A DNA stretch of 58,793 nt from Rhodospirillales bacterium (GTDB lineage: Bacteria > Pseudomonadota > Alphaproteobacteria > Rhodospirillales > JAPHRK01), in contig JAPHRK010000032.1 of assembly GCA_026196105.1 (NCBI GenBank), forward strand, positions 1 to 58,793, written 5' to 3'. How positions within the stretch are numbered: position 1 is the stretch's first letter; every line of letters begins with the position of its first letter. A model generated the notes under the pieces. That model saw nothing but the letters and a program-made list of their open reading frames with translations, was not told the origin of the DNA and did not search any database. Positions 40,910-51,349 of this stretch are shown here, piece by piece. A program made the translations under genes and the position numbers.

Positions 40910-41476
40910 ATGTCTCAAAATCAAAATCCCGGTTGGCGCGGTACAACCATTCTCTCTATCCGCAAAGGCGACAAAGTTGTGATCGCAGGCGATGGGCAAG
41001 TGAGCCTAGGTCAAACAGTGATCAAGGCCAACGCCCATAAGGTGCGCAAACTCGGTGACGGAGCCGTCATTGTTGGATTTGCTGGCGCCACCGCAGATGC
41101 TTTTACTTTGTTTGAACGCCTTGAGGCCAAACTGGAACAACACCCTGGGCAATTGACCCGTGCCTGTGTTGAGCTCGCCAAAGATTGGCGAACTGATCGT
41201 TATTTGCGCAAACTTGAAGCAATGATGGCCGTAGCTGATGACAAAGTTTCCCTTGTTCTCACCGGGACTGGCGATGTTTTAGAGCCTGAAGACGGTATTA
41301 TCGGCATCGGTTCTGGTGGCAACTATGCTTTGGCAGCAGCAAAAGCATTGATTGACCAAGACATGGACATTGTCGATATGGCAAAACGCTCCATGAAAGT
41401 TGCGGCAGACATTTGTGTCTATACCAACGAAAATGTAATTATCGAGACCTTACCAAAAGAAAAATCGGCAAAATAA
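40910..41476 (+). CDS. hslV: ATP-dependent protease subunit HslV
   Basis: HslV is the threonine-protease core of the HslVU (ClpQY) complex. The 188-residue protein has a propeptide ending in GWRGTTILS; cleavage before the TT pair exposes the catalytic threonine. The [15 protein letters not shown] and [14 protein letters not shown] segments are standard. The stop is three bases before the hslU ATG, so the subunits are co-translated. Confidence 0.97.
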
Positions 41477-41478
41477 AC

Positions 41479-42789
41479 ATGACTAATTTCAGCCCCCGTG
41501 AAATCGTTTCCGAACTTGATCGTTATATTGTTGGTCAAGACGACGCCAAACGTGCCGTCGCTATTGCCTTGCGCAACCGCTGGCGCCGCCAACAACTACC
41601 CGATGATCTTAAAGAAGAAGTTTTACCTAAAAACATCTTGATGATTGGCCCTACGGGTGTCGGTAAAACCGAAATCGCCCGTCGTCTAGCAAAACTAGCT
41701 CAGGCCCCCTTCCTCAAAGTGGAAGCGACCAAGTTTACCGAAGTGGGTTATGTGGGCCGCGATGTTGAATCCATCGTTAGAGATTTAGTCGAAGTCGCTA
41801 TTCACCAAACTCGGGAACGGCTGCGCAAACAAGTGACGGCAAAAGCCGAACTTTCTGCTGAAGAGCGGGTGATTGACGCCCTTGTTGGCGATAACGCCTC
41901 TGAAGATACCCGTCAAAAATTCCGCAAATTACTGCGCGAAGGTAAGCTTGACGATAAAGAGATTGAAATTAACGTCTCTGAGTCGGGCGGCAGCGGCATG
42001 CCTTCCTTTGAAATCCCCGGTATGCCCGGGGCTCAAATGGGCATGATTGACCTCACCGACATGCTCGGTAAAACTTTTGGTAACAAAACCAAACCTAAAA
42101 AGGTTAAAGTTTCCGAATCCCACGCCATGCTGATGGATGATGAAAGCGACAAACTGCTTGATGACGACAAAGTGGTGCGCGAAGCCGTGGAAGCCGTGGA
42201 AAATAACGGCATTGTCTTCCTCGACGAGGTCGACAAAATTACTGTCCGCTCTGATCGCAGCGGCAGTGATGTGTCACGAGAAGGGGTACAACGTGATCTG
42301 TTGCCTCTTATTGAAGGCACCACGGTCGCCACCAAGCATGGCACCATTAAAACCGACCATATTTTGTTTATCGCCTCTGGCGCTTTCCATGTGGCCAAGC
42401 CTTCTGATTTGTTGCCAGAACTACAAGGTCGTTTGCCCATCCGGGTTGAGCTCAAAGCCCTGACCCGGGATGATCTGTTGCGCATCCTCACCGAACCTGA
42501 GGCCAACTTGGTCAAACAATCCGTTGCGATGATGGCAACAGAAGATGTCACCTTAGAGTTTGATGAGGGAGCCATCGGCGAAATCGCTGATCTGGCTGAA
42601 GAAATCAACAGCGGCGTTGAAAATATAGGCGCACGACGGCTGCAAACCGTGATGGAAAAGCTCTTAGAAGACATTAGCTTCACCGCCACCGACCGCCCCG
42701 GCGAAACCGTCAAAATCACCTCAGAAGACGTTCGAACAAATGTCGAAGGCCTCGCCAAAAACGCCGATCTAAGTAAGTTTATCCTGTAG
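41479..42789 (+). CDS. hslU: ATP-dependent protease ATPase subunit HslU
   Basis: This 436-residue AAA+ unfoldase for HslV starts [20 protein letters not shown] (ATG 41479, two bases after the hslV stop). It shows Walker [16 protein letters not shown], the pore motif in [14 protein letters not shown], Walker [12 protein letters not shown], and sensor-2 [20 protein letters not shown]. The I-domain lies between. The C-terminus ends LSKFIL, the tail that docks in HslV. Confidence 0.97.
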
Positions 42790-42802
42790 AGAAACTTCGT
42801 TT

Positions 42803-42902
42803 TCCCCTTCCCCTTCTAGGGGGAGCCAGAGGGGGATGTTGGCAGGACATAAATTTACTCTGAATCAGTATCCCACCTAACCTCCCCTAAAAGGGGAGGG
42901 AT
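42803..42902. repeat. Inverted-repeat element (MITE-like) after hslU
   Basis: Two imperfect arms of about 34 bases face each other: 42803-42837 (beginning TCCCCTTCCCCTTCTAGGGG) and 42870-42902 (ending CCCCTAAAAGGGGAGGGAT). Each arm is itself palindromic. The 32-base centre is unique. The right arm could also terminate hslVU transcripts. No transposase is present. Confidence 0.65.
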
Positions 42903-42925
42903 AATTTTTGAGTAGCATAACAACC

Positions 42926-43150
42926 TTAGAATTTCCGATATTCATCTAGATGGAGACAATTTTCCTCAACCCACTTATTGGAACTCTCCAAGGCCGCTGC
43001 ATTTTCTTTACGCCAATACACAGGTTTTGTTTGAATAGCCACTTCAGGCAAGCGAGAGCGCTTTGAATAAGAGCCCGTTAATTTCTTAGGACTATCTTGC
43101 GCAATATCAGAAAATTTTTCACTTAGTCTTTTTTTATCTCCATACGACAT
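42926..43150 (-). CDS. CcdA-like antitoxin, orphan
   Basis: This 74-residue protein starts at ATG 43150 with GAGGG five bases upstream. Its last 30 residues (WRKENAAALESSNKWVEEN then CLHLDEYRKF) match the toxin-binding tail of CcdA-family antitoxins. The N-terminal part is basic and Ser-rich and does not show a clear ribbon-helix-helix. A ccdB toxin would be expected to overlap its end; only 136 bases with an inverted-repeat element lie there before the opposing hslU. It is probably a remnant or a stand-alone antitoxin. Confidence 0.65.
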   Translation of the reverse strand: MSYGDKKRLSEKFSDIAQDSPKKLTGSYSKRSRLPEVAIQTKPVYWRKENAAALESSNKWVEENCLHLDEYRKF

Positions 43151-43185
43151 AACAACCCTCAAATGATTTGATTCAGTGCCTTAAT

Positions 43186-43866
43186 CTAACTCCCCCAAAC
43201 CGCGTCCTTAATTTCCCCGACAAACTCAGCATGAGCCGCGAGTTCTTCAGTACTTGGGGCGTGGTGGCGGGGGTCACGGTGAGGTTTGTCGGACTTCTTA
43301 AGCTTTGGGCCACCACCCGCGGTGGTTTTGTCGTTGGCTAAGCTAAGACCGCGTTGACGACCATCGATAAGTTCTAAGTAGACTTGGGCTAGGAGATCGG
43401 CATCAAGTAAAGCGCCGTGGTAAGTCCGGTTGGAATTGTCGATGCCGAATTTATTACACAAGGCATCGAGGTTTACTTTAGTTCCGGGGAATTTGTTACG
43501 TGCAATGCGCACTGTGTCCAAAGACTGTTCCATAGAAAGCTCATCTTTGCCTAGCAAGTTAAGCTCAGCATTAATGAAACCCATATCGAACTCGGCATTA
43601 TGGATAACGAGCGTTGAATCCTGGATAAATTCAAGAAAGGCATCGACAATGCCAGCAAAATTAGGCTCATCGGCGACCTTTTCATTAGTGATGCCGTGGA
43701 CCTTGACCACCTCTTCCGGGATATCGCGCTCAGGGTTAATGTATTGGTGGTAAACTTTACCCGTTGGCATATGATCAATAAGCTCAACACAACCAATTTC
43801 AACAATTCGGTGGCCAGATTTAGGACTTAAACCCGTTGTTTCCGTATCAAGAACGATTTCACGCAC
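43186..43866 (-). CDS. dnaQ: DNA polymerase III subunit epsilon (3'-5' proofreading exonuclease)
   Basis: This 226-residue DEDDh exonuclease shows ExoI VLDTETTGLSP, ExoII HNAEFDMGFINAE and ExoIII YHGALLDADLLAQVY. It proofreads for the replicative polymerase core. Its first eight bases overlap the end of coaE. It ends a five-gene minus-strand run (ppsR-maf-aroE-coaE-dnaQ) that is conserved next to alphaproteobacterial replication origins. Confidence 0.96.
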   Translation of the reverse strand: MREIVLDTETTGLSPKSGHRIVEIGCVELIDHMPTGKVYHQYINPERDIPEEVVKVHGITNEKVADEPNFAGIVDAFLEFIQDSTLVIHNAEFDMGFINAELNLLGKDELSMEQSLDTVRIARNKFPGTKVNLDALCNKFGIDNSNRTYHGALLDADLLAQVYLELIDGRQRGLSLANDKTTAGGGPKLKKSDKPHRDPRHHAPSTEELAAHAEFVGEIKDAVWGS

Positions 43867-44473
43867 TTATTTTTCCTTTTCGAACCATTTTTATGACTTT
43901 TTGTACTTTTTTAAGGGTAAAAGCTTTTCCAAGACTCGTTTTAATAACAATATCTGCGCGCCGCCTCTTGTCCTGATCATCCATTTGCGCACCCCGAATG
44001 GAGGCTAATTTCTCGGCTGTCATGTCTGGGCGTGCCATTACCCGTTGGGTTTGTAAGAATTTTGGCGCCGAGACCACGACTGTCATATCACAATTTAAAT
44101 CCCCACCGGTTTCAAACAACAAAGGAATATCAAGCACCACCATTTTTTGTCCAGCAAGCGCAGCTTGCTTTAAAAATTTTTGTTTCTCTTCCCCAACAAG
44201 CGGATGAACGATGGCCTCTAACTTTTTTAAAGCCTCAACATTGCCAAAAACCATTTTTCCTAAGCGCTGGCGGTTGACAGCGCCTTTTTCAACCACACCA
44301 GGGAAGGCCGCCTCAACGGGAGCAACTGCCTTGCCCCCTTTGGAAAAGAGCTTATGGACGGAAGCATCCGCATCATGAACGGGCACACCAAGACGAGCAA
44401 ACATTTTAGCGGTTTCGCTTTTGCCCATACCAATCGACCCAGTCAGGCCAATGATAGTGAAAGGATATTTCAC
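43859..44473 (-). CDS. coaE: Dephospho-CoA kinase
   Basis: CoaE phosphorylates dephospho-CoA, the last step of coenzyme A synthesis. The 204-residue protein has the P-loop GLTGSIGMGKSETAKMFARL, DADASVHKLF, and VVLDIPLLFETG. It overlaps aroE by four bases upstream and dnaQ by eight downstream. Confidence 0.96.
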   Translation of the reverse strand: MKYPFTIIGLTGSIGMGKSETAKMFARLGVPVHDADASVHKLFSKGGKAVAPVEAAFPGVVEKGAVNRQRLGKMVFGNVEALKKLEAIVHPLVGEEKQKFLKQAALAGQKMVVLDIPLLFETGGDLNCDMTVVVSAPKFLQTQRVMARPDMTAEKLASIRGAQMDDQDKRRRADIVIKTSLGKAFTLKKVQKVIKMVRKGKISA

Positions 44474-45312
44474 ACCAAATCCTTTGTCATAAGGGTCTTG
44501 AGAGCTTCATCAACTTCTGGCTTTTGCCCAAACCAAGCTTCAAACCCTGGTCGAGCCTGATGTAAGAGCATCCCAATCCCCCCGACAACTTCGTTGCCCT
44601 GTTTTTTGGCCTGTTCCAATAGATCGGTCATCAGGGGAGCGTAGACAATATCATTGACCACTGCCTCTTTTGGCAGAGCTGAGAGATCAATTTCAAGAGG
44701 CGATTGCCCTGTCATACCTAAAGTCGAACTATTCACCAGCAGCGCCGCACCTTCAAGGGCTTGGCTTCGCTCTTCCCAATCAACAACGCATACTGCTGAG
44801 CCAAACTCCTCCCTCAAACTCACGGCACGCTGATGCGTGCGATTGGTGAGGCGGACTTCTTTGACGCCATCGTCAATTAAGGCTGCTAAAATAGCCCGTG
44901 CGGCACCACCAGCACCGAGAACAACTGCGGGACCATTGCTTGCATTCCATTGGGGCGCTTCAGATTTGAGGTTTTCGAGGAAACCAAAGCCATCCGTATT
45001 ATGACCAAAGAGGGAACCATCTTCTTGAACAACGACTGTGTTAACCGCCCCAATCCGTTTGGCTCGTTCGCTCAGGTTATCAACGATATTCATGGCCAGT
45101 TCTTTGTGAGGAACCGTAAGGTTACAGCCTTTAAAGCCAAGGGTAGGTAAGGCCCGCAACGCGGGCTCGATATTTTTTGGGTCAACAGCAAGTGGCAAAT
45201 AAGCCCCATCAATGGCGTATTTATCGAGCCAATATCCATGCAATTGCGGCGAGCGGGAATGACTGATGGGCCATCCCATAACCCCTGCTAACTTAGCCTT
45301 GCCGCTAATCAT
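44470..45312 (-). CDS. aroE: Shikimate dehydrogenase
   Basis: AroE reduces 3-dehydroshikimate with NADPH in aromatic amino-acid synthesis. The 280-residue protein shows the substrate site PISHSRSPQLHGYWL, the catalytic lysine in NLTVPHKE, and the NADP motif VLGAGGAARAILAAL followed by TNRTHQRA. Its stop overlaps the coaE start by four bases. The 97-bp gap before maf contains double-hairpin repeat copy 3. Confidence 0.96.
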   Translation of the reverse strand: MISGKAKLAGVMGWPISHSRSPQLHGYWLDKYAIDGAYLPLAVDPKNIEPALRALPTLGFKGCNLTVPHKELAMNIVDNLSERAKRIGAVNTVVVQEDGSLFGHNTDGFGFLENLKSEAPQWNASNGPAVVLGAGGAARAILAALIDDGVKEVRLTNRTHQRAVSLREEFGSAVCVVDWEERSQALEGAALLVNSSTLGMTGQSPLEIDLSALPKEAVVNDIVYAPLMTDLLEQAKKQGNEVVGGIGMLLHQARPGFEAWFGQKPEVDEALKTLMTKDLV

Positions 45313-45337
45313 CGTCTTATCACCCTAGAAACTTTAT

Positions 45338-45398
45338 CCGTTCAAACACCACTTTAGACTTACGCCAAACGATTAGCGGGCCCGCACAGTCGCGGTCC
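45338..45398 (+). repeat. Dispersed double-hairpin repeat, copy 3
   Basis: CCGTTCAAACACC leads to CGCCAAACGATTAGCG (45363-45378, one mispair). The second hairpin is a variant in which GGCCCGC (45379-45385) pairs with GCGGTCC (45392-45398), six of seven pairs. It lies between aroE and maf, pointing opposite to those genes. Confidence 0.75.
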
Positions 45399-45409
45399 TC
45401 TATATTAAG

Positions 45410-46018
45410 TCATTTTTCCAGTATGCCCTGATCTCTCAAAAAGTCCAAGAGAGGGAGCAGAGGAAGCCCAAGGATAGTGAAATAGTCACCTTCAATTTTT
45501 TCGAATAATTGAACCCCGAGTCCTTCAAGGTGATAACCCCCGACGCTGCCCTCAACCAAATAGCCAACGGATTCAACATAATCATCTAAGAACTCATCAC
45601 TAAAATCACGCATGGTCATTTGGGTTGCGTCGCGGTGGGTCCAAACAACTTCGCCATTATAAGCAACACAAAGACCACAGACCAACTGATGTATTTTGCC
45701 GCGCAAGGTTCGGAGTTGCTCACGCAAACCCTCTGGGCTCCCGGGTTTATCAAACCAGTTTTGCTGACAATAGAGAATTTGATCAGCGCCGATCACCATC
45801 ATATCAGGCTTTTTCTTTGACACAGCCACGGCTTTTTCCTGCGCCAAGCGCAGGGCAGCTTCCCCAGCAGTTTTACCCGATGCTTTATACTTTTCCTTGA
45901 CGATAGACTCATCAATATTGGCTGGATCAATGGTGAATGACAGTCCACAACCCAAAAGGAGGCGCGAGCGCGCCTTGCTGGCCGAAGCGAGGACCAGGCC
46001 ATTAGAATTTTGTATCAC
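45410..46018 (-). CDS. maf: Maf-family nucleotide pyrophosphatase
   Basis: Maf proteins hydrolyse non-canonical or excess nucleoside triphosphates to monophosphates. The 202-residue protein opens VLASASKARSRLLLGCGL and has VIGADQILYC and the VGGYHLEGLGVQLFEKIEGD tail. Its start overlaps the ppsR stop by four bases. The gene is a standard neighbour of the alphaproteobacterial origin. Confidence 0.93.
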   Translation of the reverse strand: MIQNSNGLVLASASKARSRLLLGCGLSFTIDPANIDESIVKEKYKASGKTAGEAALRLAQEKAVAVSKKKPDMMVIGADQILYCQQNWFDKPGSPEGLREQLRTLRGKIHQLVCGLCVAYNGEVVWTHRDATQMTMRDFSDEFLDDYVESVGYLVEGSVGGYHLEGLGVQLFEKIEGDYFTILGLPLLPLLDFLRDQGILEK

Positions 46019-46833
46019 GAAATTTGTTCCATACGTTTGGTATAATGCTGAATAATAGCGGCGGCGGTTTCTTCGACAGATTTTCGGGTAACGTCAATAA
46101 CGGGCCATCTATTTTTGGCATACATACGCCGAGCCGCTTTGACCTCTGCAATCACAGTTTCTAGATCTACATAGTCAGTTTCTTCAAATTCATTGAGCAT
46201 GCGCAGTCGATTTCGGCGAATTTGCACCAGACGTTGGGGATCACTGGTTAAGCCAACAATCATGGGCCCATCACTTTTAGTGAGACCGATTGGCAATGGA
46301 CAATCAGGTACCACAGGAATATTGGCTGCTTTGTAACCCCGGTTAGCGAGATAAACACAGACGGGGGTTTTTGAGGTTCTCGACACACCCATAACAACAA
46401 TATCAGCATCTTCAAACGAATTCATGGACTGACCATCATCATGGTTCATCACAAATTGAATCGCCTCAATACGTTTGAAATATTCATCATTCATGGCATG
46501 TTGTAGACCCGGCATGCCCTGAGCTTTAGTGCCCAAATGCCCGGCAAGAGCTGCAATCACGGGGTCAAGAACCGGAATAAAAGGAAGTTTTAAGCGCCGG
46601 CAACCTTCTTCCAGAACTCTGCGGAGTTCTGAATTAACCAAAGTACATAGAACAATTCCTGGAGAAGACTCAATGGATTCAATGACTTTATCCATTTGTG
46701 CTTCAGAGCGAATCAGGGGCCAGGCATGCTCAATAAGCTGCAGGTCCTCAAATTGCACTAGGCATGCTTTCGCCACTGAGATTACGGTCTCTCCCGTAGC
46801 ATCAGATACCAAATGGATATGATGTTCAGTCAT
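46015..46833 (-). CDS. ppsR: Pyruvate, phosphate dikinase regulatory protein (PPDK/PEPS kinase-phosphorylase)
   Basis: This 272-residue DUF299 protein both phosphorylates, with ADP, and dephosphorylates PPDK or PEP synthase. The P-loop-like motif GVSRTSKTPVCVYLANRGYK is intact, with the N-terminal VSDATGETVISVAKA and DVTRKSVEETAAAI near the end. It is first in the leftward run ppsR-maf-aroE-coaE-dnaQ. Its upstream gap is the candidate origin. Confidence 0.95.
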   Translation of the reverse strand: MTEHHIHLVSDATGETVISVAKACLVQFEDLQLIEHAWPLIRSEAQMDKVIESIESSPGIVLCTLVNSELRRVLEEGCRRLKLPFIPVLDPVIAALAGHLGTKAQGMPGLQHAMNDEYFKRIEAIQFVMNHDDGQSMNSFEDADIVVMGVSRTSKTPVCVYLANRGYKAANIPVVPDCPLPIGLTKSDGPMIVGLTSDPQRLVQIRRNRLRMLNEFEETDYVDLETVIAEVKAARRMYAKNRWPVIDVTRKSVEETAAAIIQHYTKRMEQIS

Positions 46834-47306
46834 CTTTTAAGGTCTTTCTTTCCACAATTTAGAGCCCTTTACCCTGTGAGCAAAACGGATGGGGTTGGGG
46901 ATAAGTAAGTTATTTATAAAAAACCAAGATTCAATCACCAGTCTTCAAAATACTCACCGCCAACCACCCTCTTGTTCATGGAGTTCTTCATAACAGGCCA
47001 ATAAGAGGGAAACAAATTCAGATTGGAGTTTTATCCCCTTTATCCCCATTTTAAAAAAACTCCGTTTCCTTGACCTTTTATTTGGTTTTACAGCTTTTGC
47101 GCACATGAGACATAATTTAACCTCAATGACCTCATAAAAACCTGGAAAAGCTGTGGATGAATAGTAATCCCCATAATTCACACGGCCTACAACTACCCCC
47201 TCCTTTCTTTTAAGAAAAAAGAGTTATAGAAGGGGACTGGGAATAACGGTAAAAATCCGTTAGAACCTTGAGCAGTGATCACCCTCTGGTAGGAAAAGTT
47301 TCCACG
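46834..47306. other. Candidate chromosomal replication origin (oriC)
   Basis: A 473-bp interval without genes lies between divergent ppsR and hemE. It holds 9-mers one mismatch from TTATCCACA: TGGGGATAA (46896-46904, reverse), TTATCCCCA (47040-47048) and TGTGGATGA (47152-47160, reverse). Two-mismatch copies are at 46848, 47031, 47165 and 47174. An A/T-rich stretch runs from 47050 to 47140. The origin of Caulobacter and Rickettsia is known to adjoin hemE, and gene strands flip outward here. Confidence 0.6.
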
Positions 47307-48347
47307 ATGAATTCTCAAGACAAACGTTTTCTGAAAGCCTTTCAACAAGTCTCTCAGGACAGACCTCCCTTTTGGCTTATGCGACAAGCAGGTCGGTACC
47401 TTCCAGAATACCGTGAAATTCGTAAAACAGCGAAGAATTTTCTCAATTTTTGCTACACACCCGATCTCGCTGTTGAAGTAACCCTTCAACCATTACGACG
47501 CTACAATTTCGATGCAGCTATCTTATTTTGCGATATCCTGGTTATTCCCGATGCCTTGGGTCAAAAAGTGGAATTCAAAGAAGGGGAAGGGCCTGTTTTA
47601 GAGCCGATTAGGAATCTTAAAGATCTTTCAAAACTTTCCATGGGTGGAATTCACGATCATTTAGCACCAGTTTACGAAACAGTACGTCGGCTTTCAAAAG
47701 AAATACCTGAAGAAACCGCTTTAATCGGTTTTGCTGGAGCTCCCTGGACCGTGGCCACTTACATGGTTGAAGGTCGGGGAGGAACAGATTATTCGACCAC
47801 GAAGGGCTGGGCTTACTCGGCTCCTGATGAGTTTGCGGTTCTAATTGATCTTTTGGTTAAAAGCACCAGTGCATACCTGTTAGCTCAAATTCGTAATGGC
47901 GCAGAAGTTGTTCAGCTTTTTGATACCTGGGCGGGAGTTTTGCCTGAGAGTCAGTTTAAAAAATGGGTAATTGAACCGACCAAAGAAATTGTTGCCAATA
48001 TCAAATCTGAGTTCCCCAATGTGCCTGTAATGGGTTTCCCTAAAGGCGCTGGTGGGCTTTATCTAGATTTTGTCAAAGAAACCGGTGTTGATGGGGTGAG
48101 CCTTGATACCTCAATGCCATTGAGTTGGGCCGCTAAAAACCTCCAGCCTCATTGTTTGGTTCAAGGTAATCTAGATAATCAAATGGTCGTTGCTGGTGGA
48201 AAAACCATGGAAGTTGAGATCAAAAATATTCTCTCAACTTTAGGCGATGGCAAATTTATTTTTAATCTAGGCCATGGAATTGTTCCTCAAACCCCCCCTG
48301 AGCATGTTGGCAAGTTGGCAGAGATTGTTCATGGTTGGAAAAAATAA
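47307..48347 (+). CDS. hemE: Uroporphyrinogen decarboxylase
   Basis: HemE converts uroporphyrinogen III to coproporphyrinogen III in heme synthesis. The 346-residue protein starts at ATG 47307 and carries the family signatures [20 protein letters not shown] and [20 protein letters not shown] 13 codons upstream is open but adds non-conserved residues. It begins the rightward hemE-hemH-hemJ-rho series and borders the candidate origin. Confidence 0.96.
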
Positions 48348-48383
48348 CTCACATGGTGAGTCTTACAAACGGAGTAAGCGGTT

Positions 48384-49424
48384 ATGTCAAAGCGTAAAAT
48401 AGCCGTTGTTCTCTTCAACTTAGGAGGGCCAGATAGCCCGAAAGCTATTCGACCTTTCTTGTTCAACCTGTTTTATGATCCGGCAATTATTAATTTACCA
48501 AATCCTTTTCGTTGGTTTTTGGCGAAATATATTTCCGGCAAACGGGCTCCCATTGCTAAAGAAATTTATGCCCATCTCGGGGGTAAATCTCCTCTTTTGG
48601 AACAAACTGAAGCGCAAGCCAGAGCCTTAGAAAAATCCTTGGAAAGCGAAGGCGAAGTTCGTTGTTTTATTGCCATGCGCTACTGGCATCCTTTCAGTGA
48701 TCAAATATCCATTGAAGTTAAAGATTTTGACCCTGATGAAATCGTGCTTCTTCCCCTTTATCCGCAATATTCAACCACCACGACAAAATCATCTTTTGAT
48801 GAGTGGAAAAGGGTGAGCTTCAATCATGCTCTCGAAAAACCAGAAAAATATTTGAATTGTTATCCTACCGAAGAGGGATTTATTACTGCGCTGGCTGAAA
48901 AAACTAAAACACGTATTTCTGAAGTTGATGGAGAGAATTATCGAATTCTCTTTTCTGCTCATGGGCTCCCAAAAGATATAATCGATAAGGGCGATCCTTA
49001 TCAAATGCATGTTGAAAAAACTTGCCAAGCTCTTGTCGAGAAAATGGCAATTGCTGATTTAGATTGGTCAATTTGTTATCAAAGCCGGGTGGGGCCTAAA
49101 GAGTGGATTGGGCCTTCAACGGATGATGAAATAACCCGTGCTGGAACGGATAAAAAATCAGTTGTCTTAGTCCCAGTCGCTTTTGTTTCTGAGCATTCAG
49201 AGACTTTGGTTGAATTAGATATTGAATATGCTGAGATGGCAAAAAAATGCGGGGTGCCTCAATACTTAAGAGTACCAACTGTTGGTGTTGACCCCGTATT
49301 TATTGAAGGCCTCTCTGGTTTGGTAAAACAATGCCTGACGAGAGATACTAAAACTGGCTGCCATCAAAAAGTTTGCCCTGATGATCAAAAGCGCTGTCCG
49401 ATAAGAAAAAGAGGAATCCACTAA
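48384..49424 (+). CDS. hemH: Ferrochelatase
   Basis: HemH inserts ferrous iron into protoporphyrin IX, the last step of heme synthesis. The 346-residue protein shows NLGGPDSPKAIRPFLFNLF, the catalytic-histidine region RILFSAHGLPKDIID, CYQSRVGPKEWIGP, and VAFVSEHSETLVELDIEY. A Cys-rich C-terminus (CLTRDTKTGCHQKVCPDDQK) recalls iron-sulfur-type ferrochelatases. It is followed by hemJ after one base. Confidence 0.96.
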   Translation: MSKRKIAVVLFNLGGPDSPKAIRPFLFNLFYDPAIINLPNPFRWFLAKYISGKRAPIAKEIYAHLGGKSPLLEQTEAQARALEKSLESEGEVRCFIAMRYWHPFSDQISIEVKDFDPDEIVLLPLYPQYSTTTTKSSFDEWKRVSFNHALEKPEKYLNCYPTEEGFITALAEKTKTRISEVDGENYRILFSAHGLPKDIIDKGDPYQMHVEKTCQALVEKMAIADLDWSICYQSRVGPKEWIGPSTDDEITRAGTDKKSVVLVPVAFVSEHSETLVELDIEYAEMAKKCGVPQYLRVPTVGVDPVFIEGLSGLVKQCLTRDTKTGCHQKVCPDDQKRCPIRKRGIH

Positions 49425-49425
49425 A

Positions 49426-49860
49426 ATGGATGGGAATGCTTATCTCTGGTACAAAGCTCTCCATATTATCAGTGTTATTGCTTGGATGGCAGGCTTACTC
49501 TATCTCCCTCGTTTGTTTGTCTATCATACAGAAGTAGACGTTGGATCAGAGACTTCCGAAAAATTTAAAATTATGGAACGGCGTCTCATTCGTGCCATCA
49601 TGCATCCCGCGGCTATTTCATCGACGATTTTTGGATTTCTTCTGGTTTATGAAATGGATGCCTGGATGGAAGGGTGGTTTCACGCTAAACTTCTTTGCAT
49701 TATTTTTATGTATTTTATGCATTGGCAAATGATGCGTTGGCGGATGGATTTTGCCGAAGATAGAAACTCTCGGTCTCAAAAATTCTACCGGTTTGCCAAT
49801 GAAGGCCCAACCCTCTTGATGATCTTTATTGTCATTATAGTGGTCATAAAACCTTTTTAA
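49426..49860 (+). CDS. hemJ: Protoporphyrinogen IX oxidase HemJ
   Basis: This 144-residue membrane protein has four helices and the HemJ signature LWYKALHIISVIAWMAGLLY with its conserved histidine, then LPRLFVYH. A second conserved HAKLLCIIFMYFMHW segment follows. HemJ oxidises protoporphyrinogen IX in many alphaproteobacteria that lack HemG/HemY. It starts one base after hemH, completing a three-gene heme operon. Confidence 0.94.
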   Translation: MDGNAYLWYKALHIISVIAWMAGLLYLPRLFVYHTEVDVGSETSEKFKIMERRLIRAIMHPAAISSTIFGFLLVYEMDAWMEGWFHAKLLCIIFMYFMHWQMMRWRMDFAEDRNSRSQKFYRFANEGPTLLMIFIVIIVVIKPF

Positions 49861-49924
49861 TTACGTATATAGTTCGTTTTTTGTTGACATAAAGTGATGA
49901 TTACTTCAGCTTAGGCTTACTAAA

Positions 49925-49948
49925 TACCTATCCGCGTACCTATCCGCG
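49925..49948 (+). repeat. Perfect tandem 12-mer in the rho leader
   Basis: TACCTATCCGCG occurs twice head-to-tail, followed by a C-rich, G-poor stretch (CACCTCC...TTTCCC). The region lies about 150 bases before the rho ATG. The C-over-G bias is what a Rho utilisation (rut) site shows. Confidence 0.7.
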
Positions 49949-50092
49949 CACCTCCATTAGAATTTCCCAACGCTTTAAAGATTTTTTATATCAAGTATTA
50001 GCGTCAGAAATATAATTTTATTAATATCTCCAAATTAGCCGGACCCGGCACTTTTTAAATATCCCCCTTTTATCAATCGAGCAAAGACCACA

Positions 50093-51349
50093 ATGAATCT
50101 CAAAGAACTTAAAGCTAAAAGCCCCCAAGAACTTTTGGCTCTCGCTGAAGAACTGGAAATTGAAAACGCCAGTACTCTTCGTAAACAAGATATCATGTTT
50201 GCTATCCTCAAAGCCTCTGCTGAAAATGATGTAGCAATTTTTGGTGATGGGGTTCTTGAAGTTCTCCAAGATGGATTTGGGTTTTTACGCTCACCAGAAG
50301 CTAATTACTTACCAGGGCCTGATGATATTTACGTCAGCCCCAGCCAGGTACGTCGCTTTGGTTTGAGAACTGGTGATACGGTTGAAGGCCAAATTCGGTC
50401 TCCTAAAGATGGGGAACGTTATTTTGCTCTGTTGAGGGTCAACAATATTAACTTTGAAGAACCAGAAGCGGTTCGTCATCGTATTAACTTTGATAACTTA
50501 ACGCCGCTTTATCCTGATGAGCGTTTGATCATGGAAGTTGATGATCCAAAGCGTGAAGACCCAACTCACCGGATTATGGATCTTGTGGCCCCAATCGGAA
50601 AAGGCCAACGGGCTTTGATTGTGGCGCCACCACGCACAGGTAAAACTGTGATGCTGCAAAACATCGCTCAATCTATTAGCGCTAACCATCCAGATGCTTT
50701 CTTAATCGTTCTTCTTATTGATGAACGTCCTGAAGAAGTAACAGATATGGATCGTTCCGTTAAAGGTGAGGTCATCAGCTCCACATTTGATGAGCCTGCA
50801 ACCCGGCACGTCCAGGTTTCAGAAATGGTTATCGAGCGGGCAAAACGCTTGGTTGAACATAAAAGAGATGTGGTGATCTTACTTGATTCTATCACCCGTC
50901 TGGCGCGGGCCTACAACACAGTTGTTCCGTCCTCTGGTAAAGTTCTGACCGGTGGTGTTGACGCCAACGCTCTTCAGCGCCCCAAACGTTTCTTCGGGGC
51001 AGCTCGGAATATTGAAGAAGGGGGCAGCTTAACCATTATTGGTACAGCCCTCGTTGATACGGGCTCTCGTATGGATGAAGTTATTTTCGAAGAGTTTAAA
51101 GGCACAGGTAACTCTGAGCTAATCCTTGATCGTAAGCTTACCGACAAACGTCTGTTCCCAACCATTGATATTACGAAGTCCGGTACCCGGAAAGAAGAAC
51201 TGTTGGTCGACAAAGGCACCCTATCCAAAATGTGGGTCTTACGTCGTATCCTCAACCCAATGGGTGTTGTCGACGGTATGGAATTCCTGCTTAGCAAAAT
51301 GAAGGATTCAAAAAATAATGATGATTTCTTCGATGCGATGAACAGCTAA
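50093..51349 (+). CDS. rho: Transcription termination factor Rho
   Basis: This 418-residue hexameric RNA helicase has an N-terminal helical domain ([20 protein letters not shown]), a cold-shock-like RNA-binding domain ([20 protein letters not shown]), Walker [13 protein letters not shown], Walker [18 protein letters not shown], and the Q/R-loops. It has a 232-bp leader with a C-rich repeat, which would allow the autoregulation known from E. coli rho. A perfect terminator follows. Confidence 0.97.

Follow-up and report, generated by a model that had tools for sequence, protein, structure and literature searches.

The origins of Caulobacter and Rickettsia are described, in the available text of PMC1914354, as lying between hemE and COG1806. 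According to the accessible parts of PMC4285127 and PMC4468827, the Caulobacter W-boxes (TCCCCA) are very weak DnaA sites, and the portion of PMC8235120 on which we draw identifies C at position 7 as the mark of boxes to which ATP-DnaA binds. The basal unwinding system (BUS) is laid out, in the sections of PMC8287927 and PMC8235120 available, as a box pair, ~4 bp of GC-rich sequence, a trinucleotide array and A/T-rich DNA, in that order. For the Bacillus subtilis DnaA protein, the part of PMC10721633 that deals with reading of the trio assigns the central adenine to Asn187 and the guanine to Arg202 and Glu228, and reports that cytosine can replace the central adenine whereas thymine and guanine cannot.

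The locus described here lies in a window of 58,793 nucleotides, the whole stretch of DNA that was analyzed. This window is a complete contig, one of the 82 that make up the 3.92-Mb genome. Between COG1806, which we take to be ppsR (46015-46833, minus strand, start codon at 46831-46833), and hemE (47307-48347, plus strand, ATG at 47307-47309) is a 473 bp gap bounded exactly by positions 46834 and 47306. The surrounding gene order, with names assigned by frame reading, is hslV, hslU, dnaQ-like, coaE, aroE, maf, ppsR / hemE, hemH, rho (40910-51349). An earlier note on this DNA had proposed a candidate origin in a gene-free interval with an A/T-rich stretch at a strand switch; the interval and the switch stand exactly as claimed, and the GC fraction of the gap is 0.395 compared to 0.466 in the window, against which A/T enrichment was measured. 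Its statement that the Caulobacter and Rickettsia origins adjoin hemE is confirmed by the available text of PMC1914354. Based on this gene context, the conservation of DnaA boxes in relatives and, in the relative G015, a sign change of GC skew at the corresponding gap, we predict that the whole gap is oriC and, as the earlier note had suggested, very probably the chromosomal origin, of the hemE-ppsR (Caulobacter/Rickettsia) type. The host is the sole member of its family both among 40 genomes and among 199, the others shown belonging to the same order, and the prediction thus places an origin in a lineage to which none of the searched genomes is closely related.

The gap contains no exact TTATCCACA but, in agreement with the earlier note, three 9-mers that differ from it by one mismatch; these start at 46896, 47040 and 47152. 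Dinucleotide shuffles of the gap yield 0.14 such boxes by chance, and none of 2000 shuffles reaches three. The left box, TTATCCCCA (46896-46904, minus strand), is of the W type, with C at position 7, and aligns with TTATCCACA in several relatives. The same W-type sequence TTATCCCCA (47040-47048, plus strand) forms the second half of a tandem with a 9-bp period, the first half being TTATCCCCT (47031-47039, plus strand); the head-to-tail arrangement described in the earlier note is thereby confirmed, with the correction that TTATCCCCT carries two mismatches. The third box, TCATCCACA (47152-47160, minus strand), has A at position 7. Weaker boxes also exist, although there are not four of them, as had been counted, but six with two mismatches, starting at 46848, 47031, 47117, 47165, 47174 and 47238. 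Three exact TCCCCA W-boxes are present in the gap. Across the genome, TTATCCCC followed by TTATCC within 12 bp occurs a single time, in this gap, and TNATCCMCA has 309 matches versus 136 for the reversed control, with four matches located within 278 bp in the gap. Two TNATCCMCA boxes in one direction within 25 bp are found only at C24:1023-1070, a cluster that was rejected as an origin as it lies inside an acyltransferase-like coding frame.

Conservation was assessed at two levels. A search of 40 genomes of the order found ppsR in 36, of which 30 (the host and 29 others) were examined and six left out; together with two named loci these give 32 near loci. L032 is a Hyphomonadaceae record from outside the order search, and removal of its duplicate, L033, leaves 31 gaps. 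hemE is divergent from ppsR at all 32 near loci, and the 31 distinct gaps span 330-524 bp. At the class level, ppsR was found in 89 of 142 genomes and 69 further loci were examined, 18, among the most distant, being left out. hemE-ppsR synteny is retained in 64 of the 69, with no hemE in the stretch fetched for the other five. The 31 near gaps contain 72 boxes within one mismatch versus 4.0 in dinucleotide shuffles (maximum 10), and the 64 class-level gaps contain 142 versus 7.0 in shuffles, an enrichment of 18-20 times over chance among gaps some of which share one genus and hence are non-independent. The commonest near-gap boxes are TTATCCCCA (14, with 0.23 expected), TTATCCACA (13) and TCATCCACA (10). 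The tandem at 47031/47040 is clear in 9 of the 31 near gaps, and none of 200 plain shuffles scores as high there, using a template derived from these same sequences. Three blocks emerge when 12 of the 31 gaps are aligned: a box on the left, a C-rich tandem in the middle and, on the right, a module built around ATCCCC.

The earlier note had interpreted the boxes with C at position 7 as low-affinity and lineage-specific. Low affinity agrees, by analogy, with the published accounts of C at position 7 available to us. Lineage specificity does not hold, as TTATCCCCA is found in 12 of the 31 near gaps and 23 times in the 64 class-level gaps, and the TCCCCA W-box is already described in Caulobacter in the text cited above; by this comparison the boxes would fit the weak W-boxes of that organism. 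An altered box specificity of DnaA was considered as the cause of the position-7 C and rejected: the GGRDHTTV motif is identical to that of B. subtilis DnaA, and TTATCCACA is still the commonest box in the class-level gaps (27, compared to 23 for TTATCCCCA). With this domain IV motif intact, a weak affinity of the W-type boxes is more probable than a change in how they are read.

To the right of TCATCCACA, and absent from the earlier note, is a module with the composition TAATCCCCA-TAATTCACA-CGGC-CTACAACTA (47165-47195), followed by 42 bp with an A/T-rich core. Its proximal W-type box, TAATCCCCA (47165-47173, plus strand), is marked by ATCCCC, in which five letters are invariant and one is at least 90% conserved in the 12 aligned gaps. 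The weak box TAATTCACA (47174-47182, plus strand, two mismatches) is attached to it head-to-tail with no space between them. Next come the GC-rich spacer CGGC (47183-47186, plus strand), comparable to the BUS spacer as described in the accessible text of PMC8287927, and the (CHA)3 array CTACAACTA (47187-47195, plus strand), whose complement, 3'-GAT-GTT-GAT-5', is presumably the strand gripped by DnaA. The stretch with the A/T-rich core (47196-47237) is the presumed unwinding element, and between it and hemE is a weak opposing box, TTATTCCCA (47238-47246, minus strand), adjacent to a T-rich strand. The single-strand DNA fold of 47145-47260 has a z of -2.23, with 5 of 200 shuffles as good; in its main stem, the region of the 47152 box is base-paired to TTCACACGGC.

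A scan of 95 gaps for (CNA)3+ arrays on the plus strand detected them in 51 (24/31 near, 27/64 class), always in the half next to hemE and never in the opposite half; the minus-strand counts are 3 and 1. The 44 scanned gaps without such an array include both from the genus of G015 (L023, L024). The longest arrays per gap comprise 204 triplets, with T (89), A (70) or C (45) at the center and G in none, while shorter further arrays hold two G-centered triplets. Starting at the first base of the array, the plus strand has a G fraction of 0.035 over 30 nt and of 0.058 over the 20 nt that follow, versus 0.223 for whole gaps. A triplet rule of "never G at the center" is therefore weakened, by the two G-centered triplets and by the G-poverty of the whole stretch. 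The composite pattern AATCCCCR-N3-4-TTCA-N2-9-(CHA)3, which is too strict to gauge the frequency of the module, matches 13 of 199 genomes of the order, the host included, and its reversed control matches none. The host genome has this strict composite once, at 47166-47195. Nine of the ten matching loci fetched (the host's included) adjoin hemE, L249 being the exception; five of the ten were the host's own or already in the gap set that made the pattern, and four of the five new ones adjoin hemE. One of these four, L251 (G008), comes from a genome in which ppsR was not found. In G020 the composite falls, by coordinates, in its gap.

How the array is used is less certain than where the origin lies. 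Two boxes with no more than two mismatches are located within 16 bp of the array, as in the BUS box criterion, TAATCCCCA 13 bp and TAATTCACA 4 bp before it. The three-trio rule (3'-NAN-5', central A) does not hold at the host array, 3'-GAT-GTT-GAT-5'; it holds at the array in 2 of the 31 near gaps, and in three more elsewhere in the last 40% of the gap (plus-strand boxes). One explanation, a serious one that we rate a little short of probable, keeps the origin in this gap but takes the (CHA)n array for something other than a DnaA-trio, namely a G-poor strand or the site of another protein, or has DnaA open the A/T-rich stretch from the 47238 box. This is consistent with the failure of the trio rule at the array and with a plus strand that is G-poor throughout, beyond the triplet centers. 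It also draws on three minus-strand boxes, at 46896, 47152 and 47238, that fit a loose form of the BUS rule, matches that are prone to chance; for the last, TTATTCCCA, a spacer of 14 is followed by CTCTTTTTT on the minus strand. Judged by sequence, the gap may contain the published module in reverse orientation as well. When whole gaps and both strands are considered, however, the rule is matched in about 9 of 31 shuffled gaps as well as in 22 of 31 real ones. Two further points count against such an explanation. The elements stand in the published BUS order, with a head-to-tail box pair, 4 bp of GC-rich spacer and then, immediately, the array. The three-base period is also specific: ANC, which ranks next in unevenness, is found in 28 gaps versus 6 in the other half, and partly represents the same arrays in another register.

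The region between the array and hemE, here called the tail, was surveyed with patterns chosen after the tails were seen. Opposing TTATCCCCA-like boxes, which would favor opening from the hemE side over a trio at the array, are present in 20 of 63 tails versus 6.3 (near set, 10 of 25 versus 2.7). TAGAAG is found in 12 of 63 versus 1.5, and TTATCCACA itself in 9 versus 6.9 (plain shuffles). A mirrored second opening module that faces the first is conceivable and provides a lead. Separately, AAGATTCT, which contains GANTC, is present in 8 of the 63 relatives' tails versus 0.1 expected.

The alternative in which the array does act as a DnaA-trio is that hemE-type alphaproteobacterial origins use a relaxed trio, 3'-G(A/T/G)T-5', loaded from the W-box/weak-box tandem, and that the DnaA reader has changed as well (Asn187 to Tyr or Phe). 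We propose this relaxed trio only tentatively, as possible rather than likely, and it is weakened because the whole stretch is G-poor. No trio with a free center in alphaproteobacteria was described in the literature searched; the species list in the supplement of PMC8287927 lies outside that literature, and such cases may be in print.

The DnaA protein of the host bears on this proposal. In it, Asn187 is replaced by Tyr (residue 228 of the host protein) and Arg202 by Lys, and Glu183, Lys222, Glu223 and Glu228 are retained (B. subtilis positions). Among 78 alphaproteobacterial DnaA genes, a set made up of the best-scoring search matches and 20 hand-picked genes chosen partly for divergence, the Asn187 position is Tyr in 66, Phe in 4, and His, Arg, Ser and Asn in 2 each. 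Of 56 genomes whose DnaA has Tyr or Phe there, 33 have an array, compared to none of the 5 that have a different residue (one-sided P = 0.0165, uncorrected for relatedness), a hint that the DnaA residue and the array are associated. Of the two genomes with Asn, one has a gap (L147) that reads CTACTACTT after GGCC, as predicted, while the gap of the other (L153) does not. The retained guanine pocket would match the constant G of the array complement and the changed reader its free center, a fit, read from the sequences, that was seen after the fact.

Taken in order, we infer the following binding and opening steps. DnaA would first occupy the better box, TCATCCACA, at 47152, and at high levels of DnaA-ATP the weak position-7-C boxes (46896, 47031/47040 and 47165) would be filled. 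A DnaA filament extending from the head-to-tail pair at 47165-47182 could then cross the 4-bp GC-rich spacer and reach the complement of the CTACAACTA array, a step at which the involvement of DnaA is, in our estimate, about evenly balanced. The A/T-rich stretch at 47196-47237 would subsequently open, followed by loading of the helicase.

As the host genome is in 82 contigs, the skew evidence comes from the relatives G015 and G024 and from the window. G015 consists of one contig of 3.83 Mb, from which 29 stretches of 20 kb were sampled. GC skew is below zero in each of the 17 stretches that lie between 1.52 Mb and the gap (3.422 Mb) and above zero in 11 of the remaining 12, the exception (-0.028) being at 3.52 Mb. 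At finer scale, the skew steps from 0.000 (3.417-3.422 Mb) to +0.103 in the 5 kb after the gap. The sign change in G024 is weak, from -0.008 to +0.030: five stretches before the gap (3.70-3.9045 Mb) range from -0.003 to -0.011 and five after it from +0.007 to +0.032, with an exception at 0.10 Mb (-0.009) and a coarse sample that is mixed in the first half. The cumulative G-C minimum of the window is at 47549. For leading and lagging genes of the window, called by a simple longest-frame rule, the best of 53 GC3 breakpoints is 47050 (P = 0.0025 at that point, 0.055 over all 53), which separates a leading mean GC3 skew of -0.044 (29 genes) from a lagging mean of -0.150 (25 genes).

These data also bear on the location of the origin at dnaA-dnaN, as in many bacteria, with the hemE gap being only a divergent promoter regulated by DnaA. 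The host's dnaA-dnaN gap does carry an exact TTATCCACA and a TTATCCCCA, both on the minus strand, and the gene order there is dnaA-dnaN-recF-gyrB (names by frame reading). However, the corresponding gaps of 26 of 29 relatives have no box at all, and the 30 dnaA-dnaN gaps together contain 5 (0.9 expected), two of them the host's own, versus the 72 in the 31 hemE gaps. Moreover, dnaA in G015 is at C1:1, where the skew is +0.117 in the stretch that starts there and +0.090 in the nearest one sampled before it, ~200 kb away; the sign changes at the hemE gap and not at dnaA. We therefore rejected an origin at dnaA-dnaN, on the boxless gaps of the relatives and the unchanged skew, as very improbable. 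The two boxes in the host's dnaA-dnaN gap (G000:C22:12856-13041, equivalent to L075:4856-5041) perhaps reflect control of dnaN by DnaA.

Least credible of all is that the conserved elements are operators and promoters of hemE and ppsR with no replication role. In favor of this reading, divergently transcribed genes require promoters, DnaA doubles as a transcription factor, and the A/T-rich stretch is ~70-110 bp upstream of the hemE start. Against it, the change of skew seen in G015 and in the window is a signature of replication, and the Caulobacter and Rickettsia origins occupy the same gap.

With the gap taken as the origin, the role of the array has consequences beyond this locus. Should the array serve as the opening element, the central-adenine rule would fail for many alphaproteobacteria, and the weak W-boxes of Caulobacter would gain a role as platform boxes beside the array. 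If the relaxed trio is true, it would join the Caulobacter W-boxes and the BUS in one mechanism, and would provide an example of an origin and its initiator co-evolving.

Comparison with described origins underscores both the shared plan and the differences. By its published description, in the parts available, the Caulobacter crescentus origin (Cori) shares with the host gap the hemE/COG1806 flanks, the weak TCCCCA W-boxes and a box changed at position 2, which is TGATCCACA in Cori and TCATCCACA here. Cori has two G-boxes and five W-boxes, however, whereas this gap has three exact TCCCCA. The regulator GcrA is encoded in the host genome, a further likeness to Caulobacter, and the gap has one GANTC, at 46928. 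It contains no CtrA site of the form TTAA-N7-TTAA, with one half site, TTAACC, at 47117, and no match to a strict E. coli-type IHF consensus, which a weaker site may escape. The Rickettsia prowazekii oriC, as far as the text of PMC1914354 describes it, has the same flanking genes and a similar length (384 bp) but is more A/T-rich (82.6% compared to 60.5% here). The BUS of B. subtilis, compared by the order of elements in the available descriptions and with polarity set aside, has the same box pair in one orientation, ~4 bp GC-rich segment, trinucleotide array and A/T-rich stretch; the central A is constant there and variable here, and the host DnaA has Tyr for Asn187 and Lys for Arg202. Helicobacter pylori oriC2 (ts1-ts2-GC-trio), in the account given in the accessible sections of PMC8235120, likewise has C at position 7 of its first box, a second box that abuts the first, and then a GC-rich spacer and an array. 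Its trios are 5'-CTA-3' with a strictly conserved central T, however, while in the hemE-ppsR gaps the center varies.
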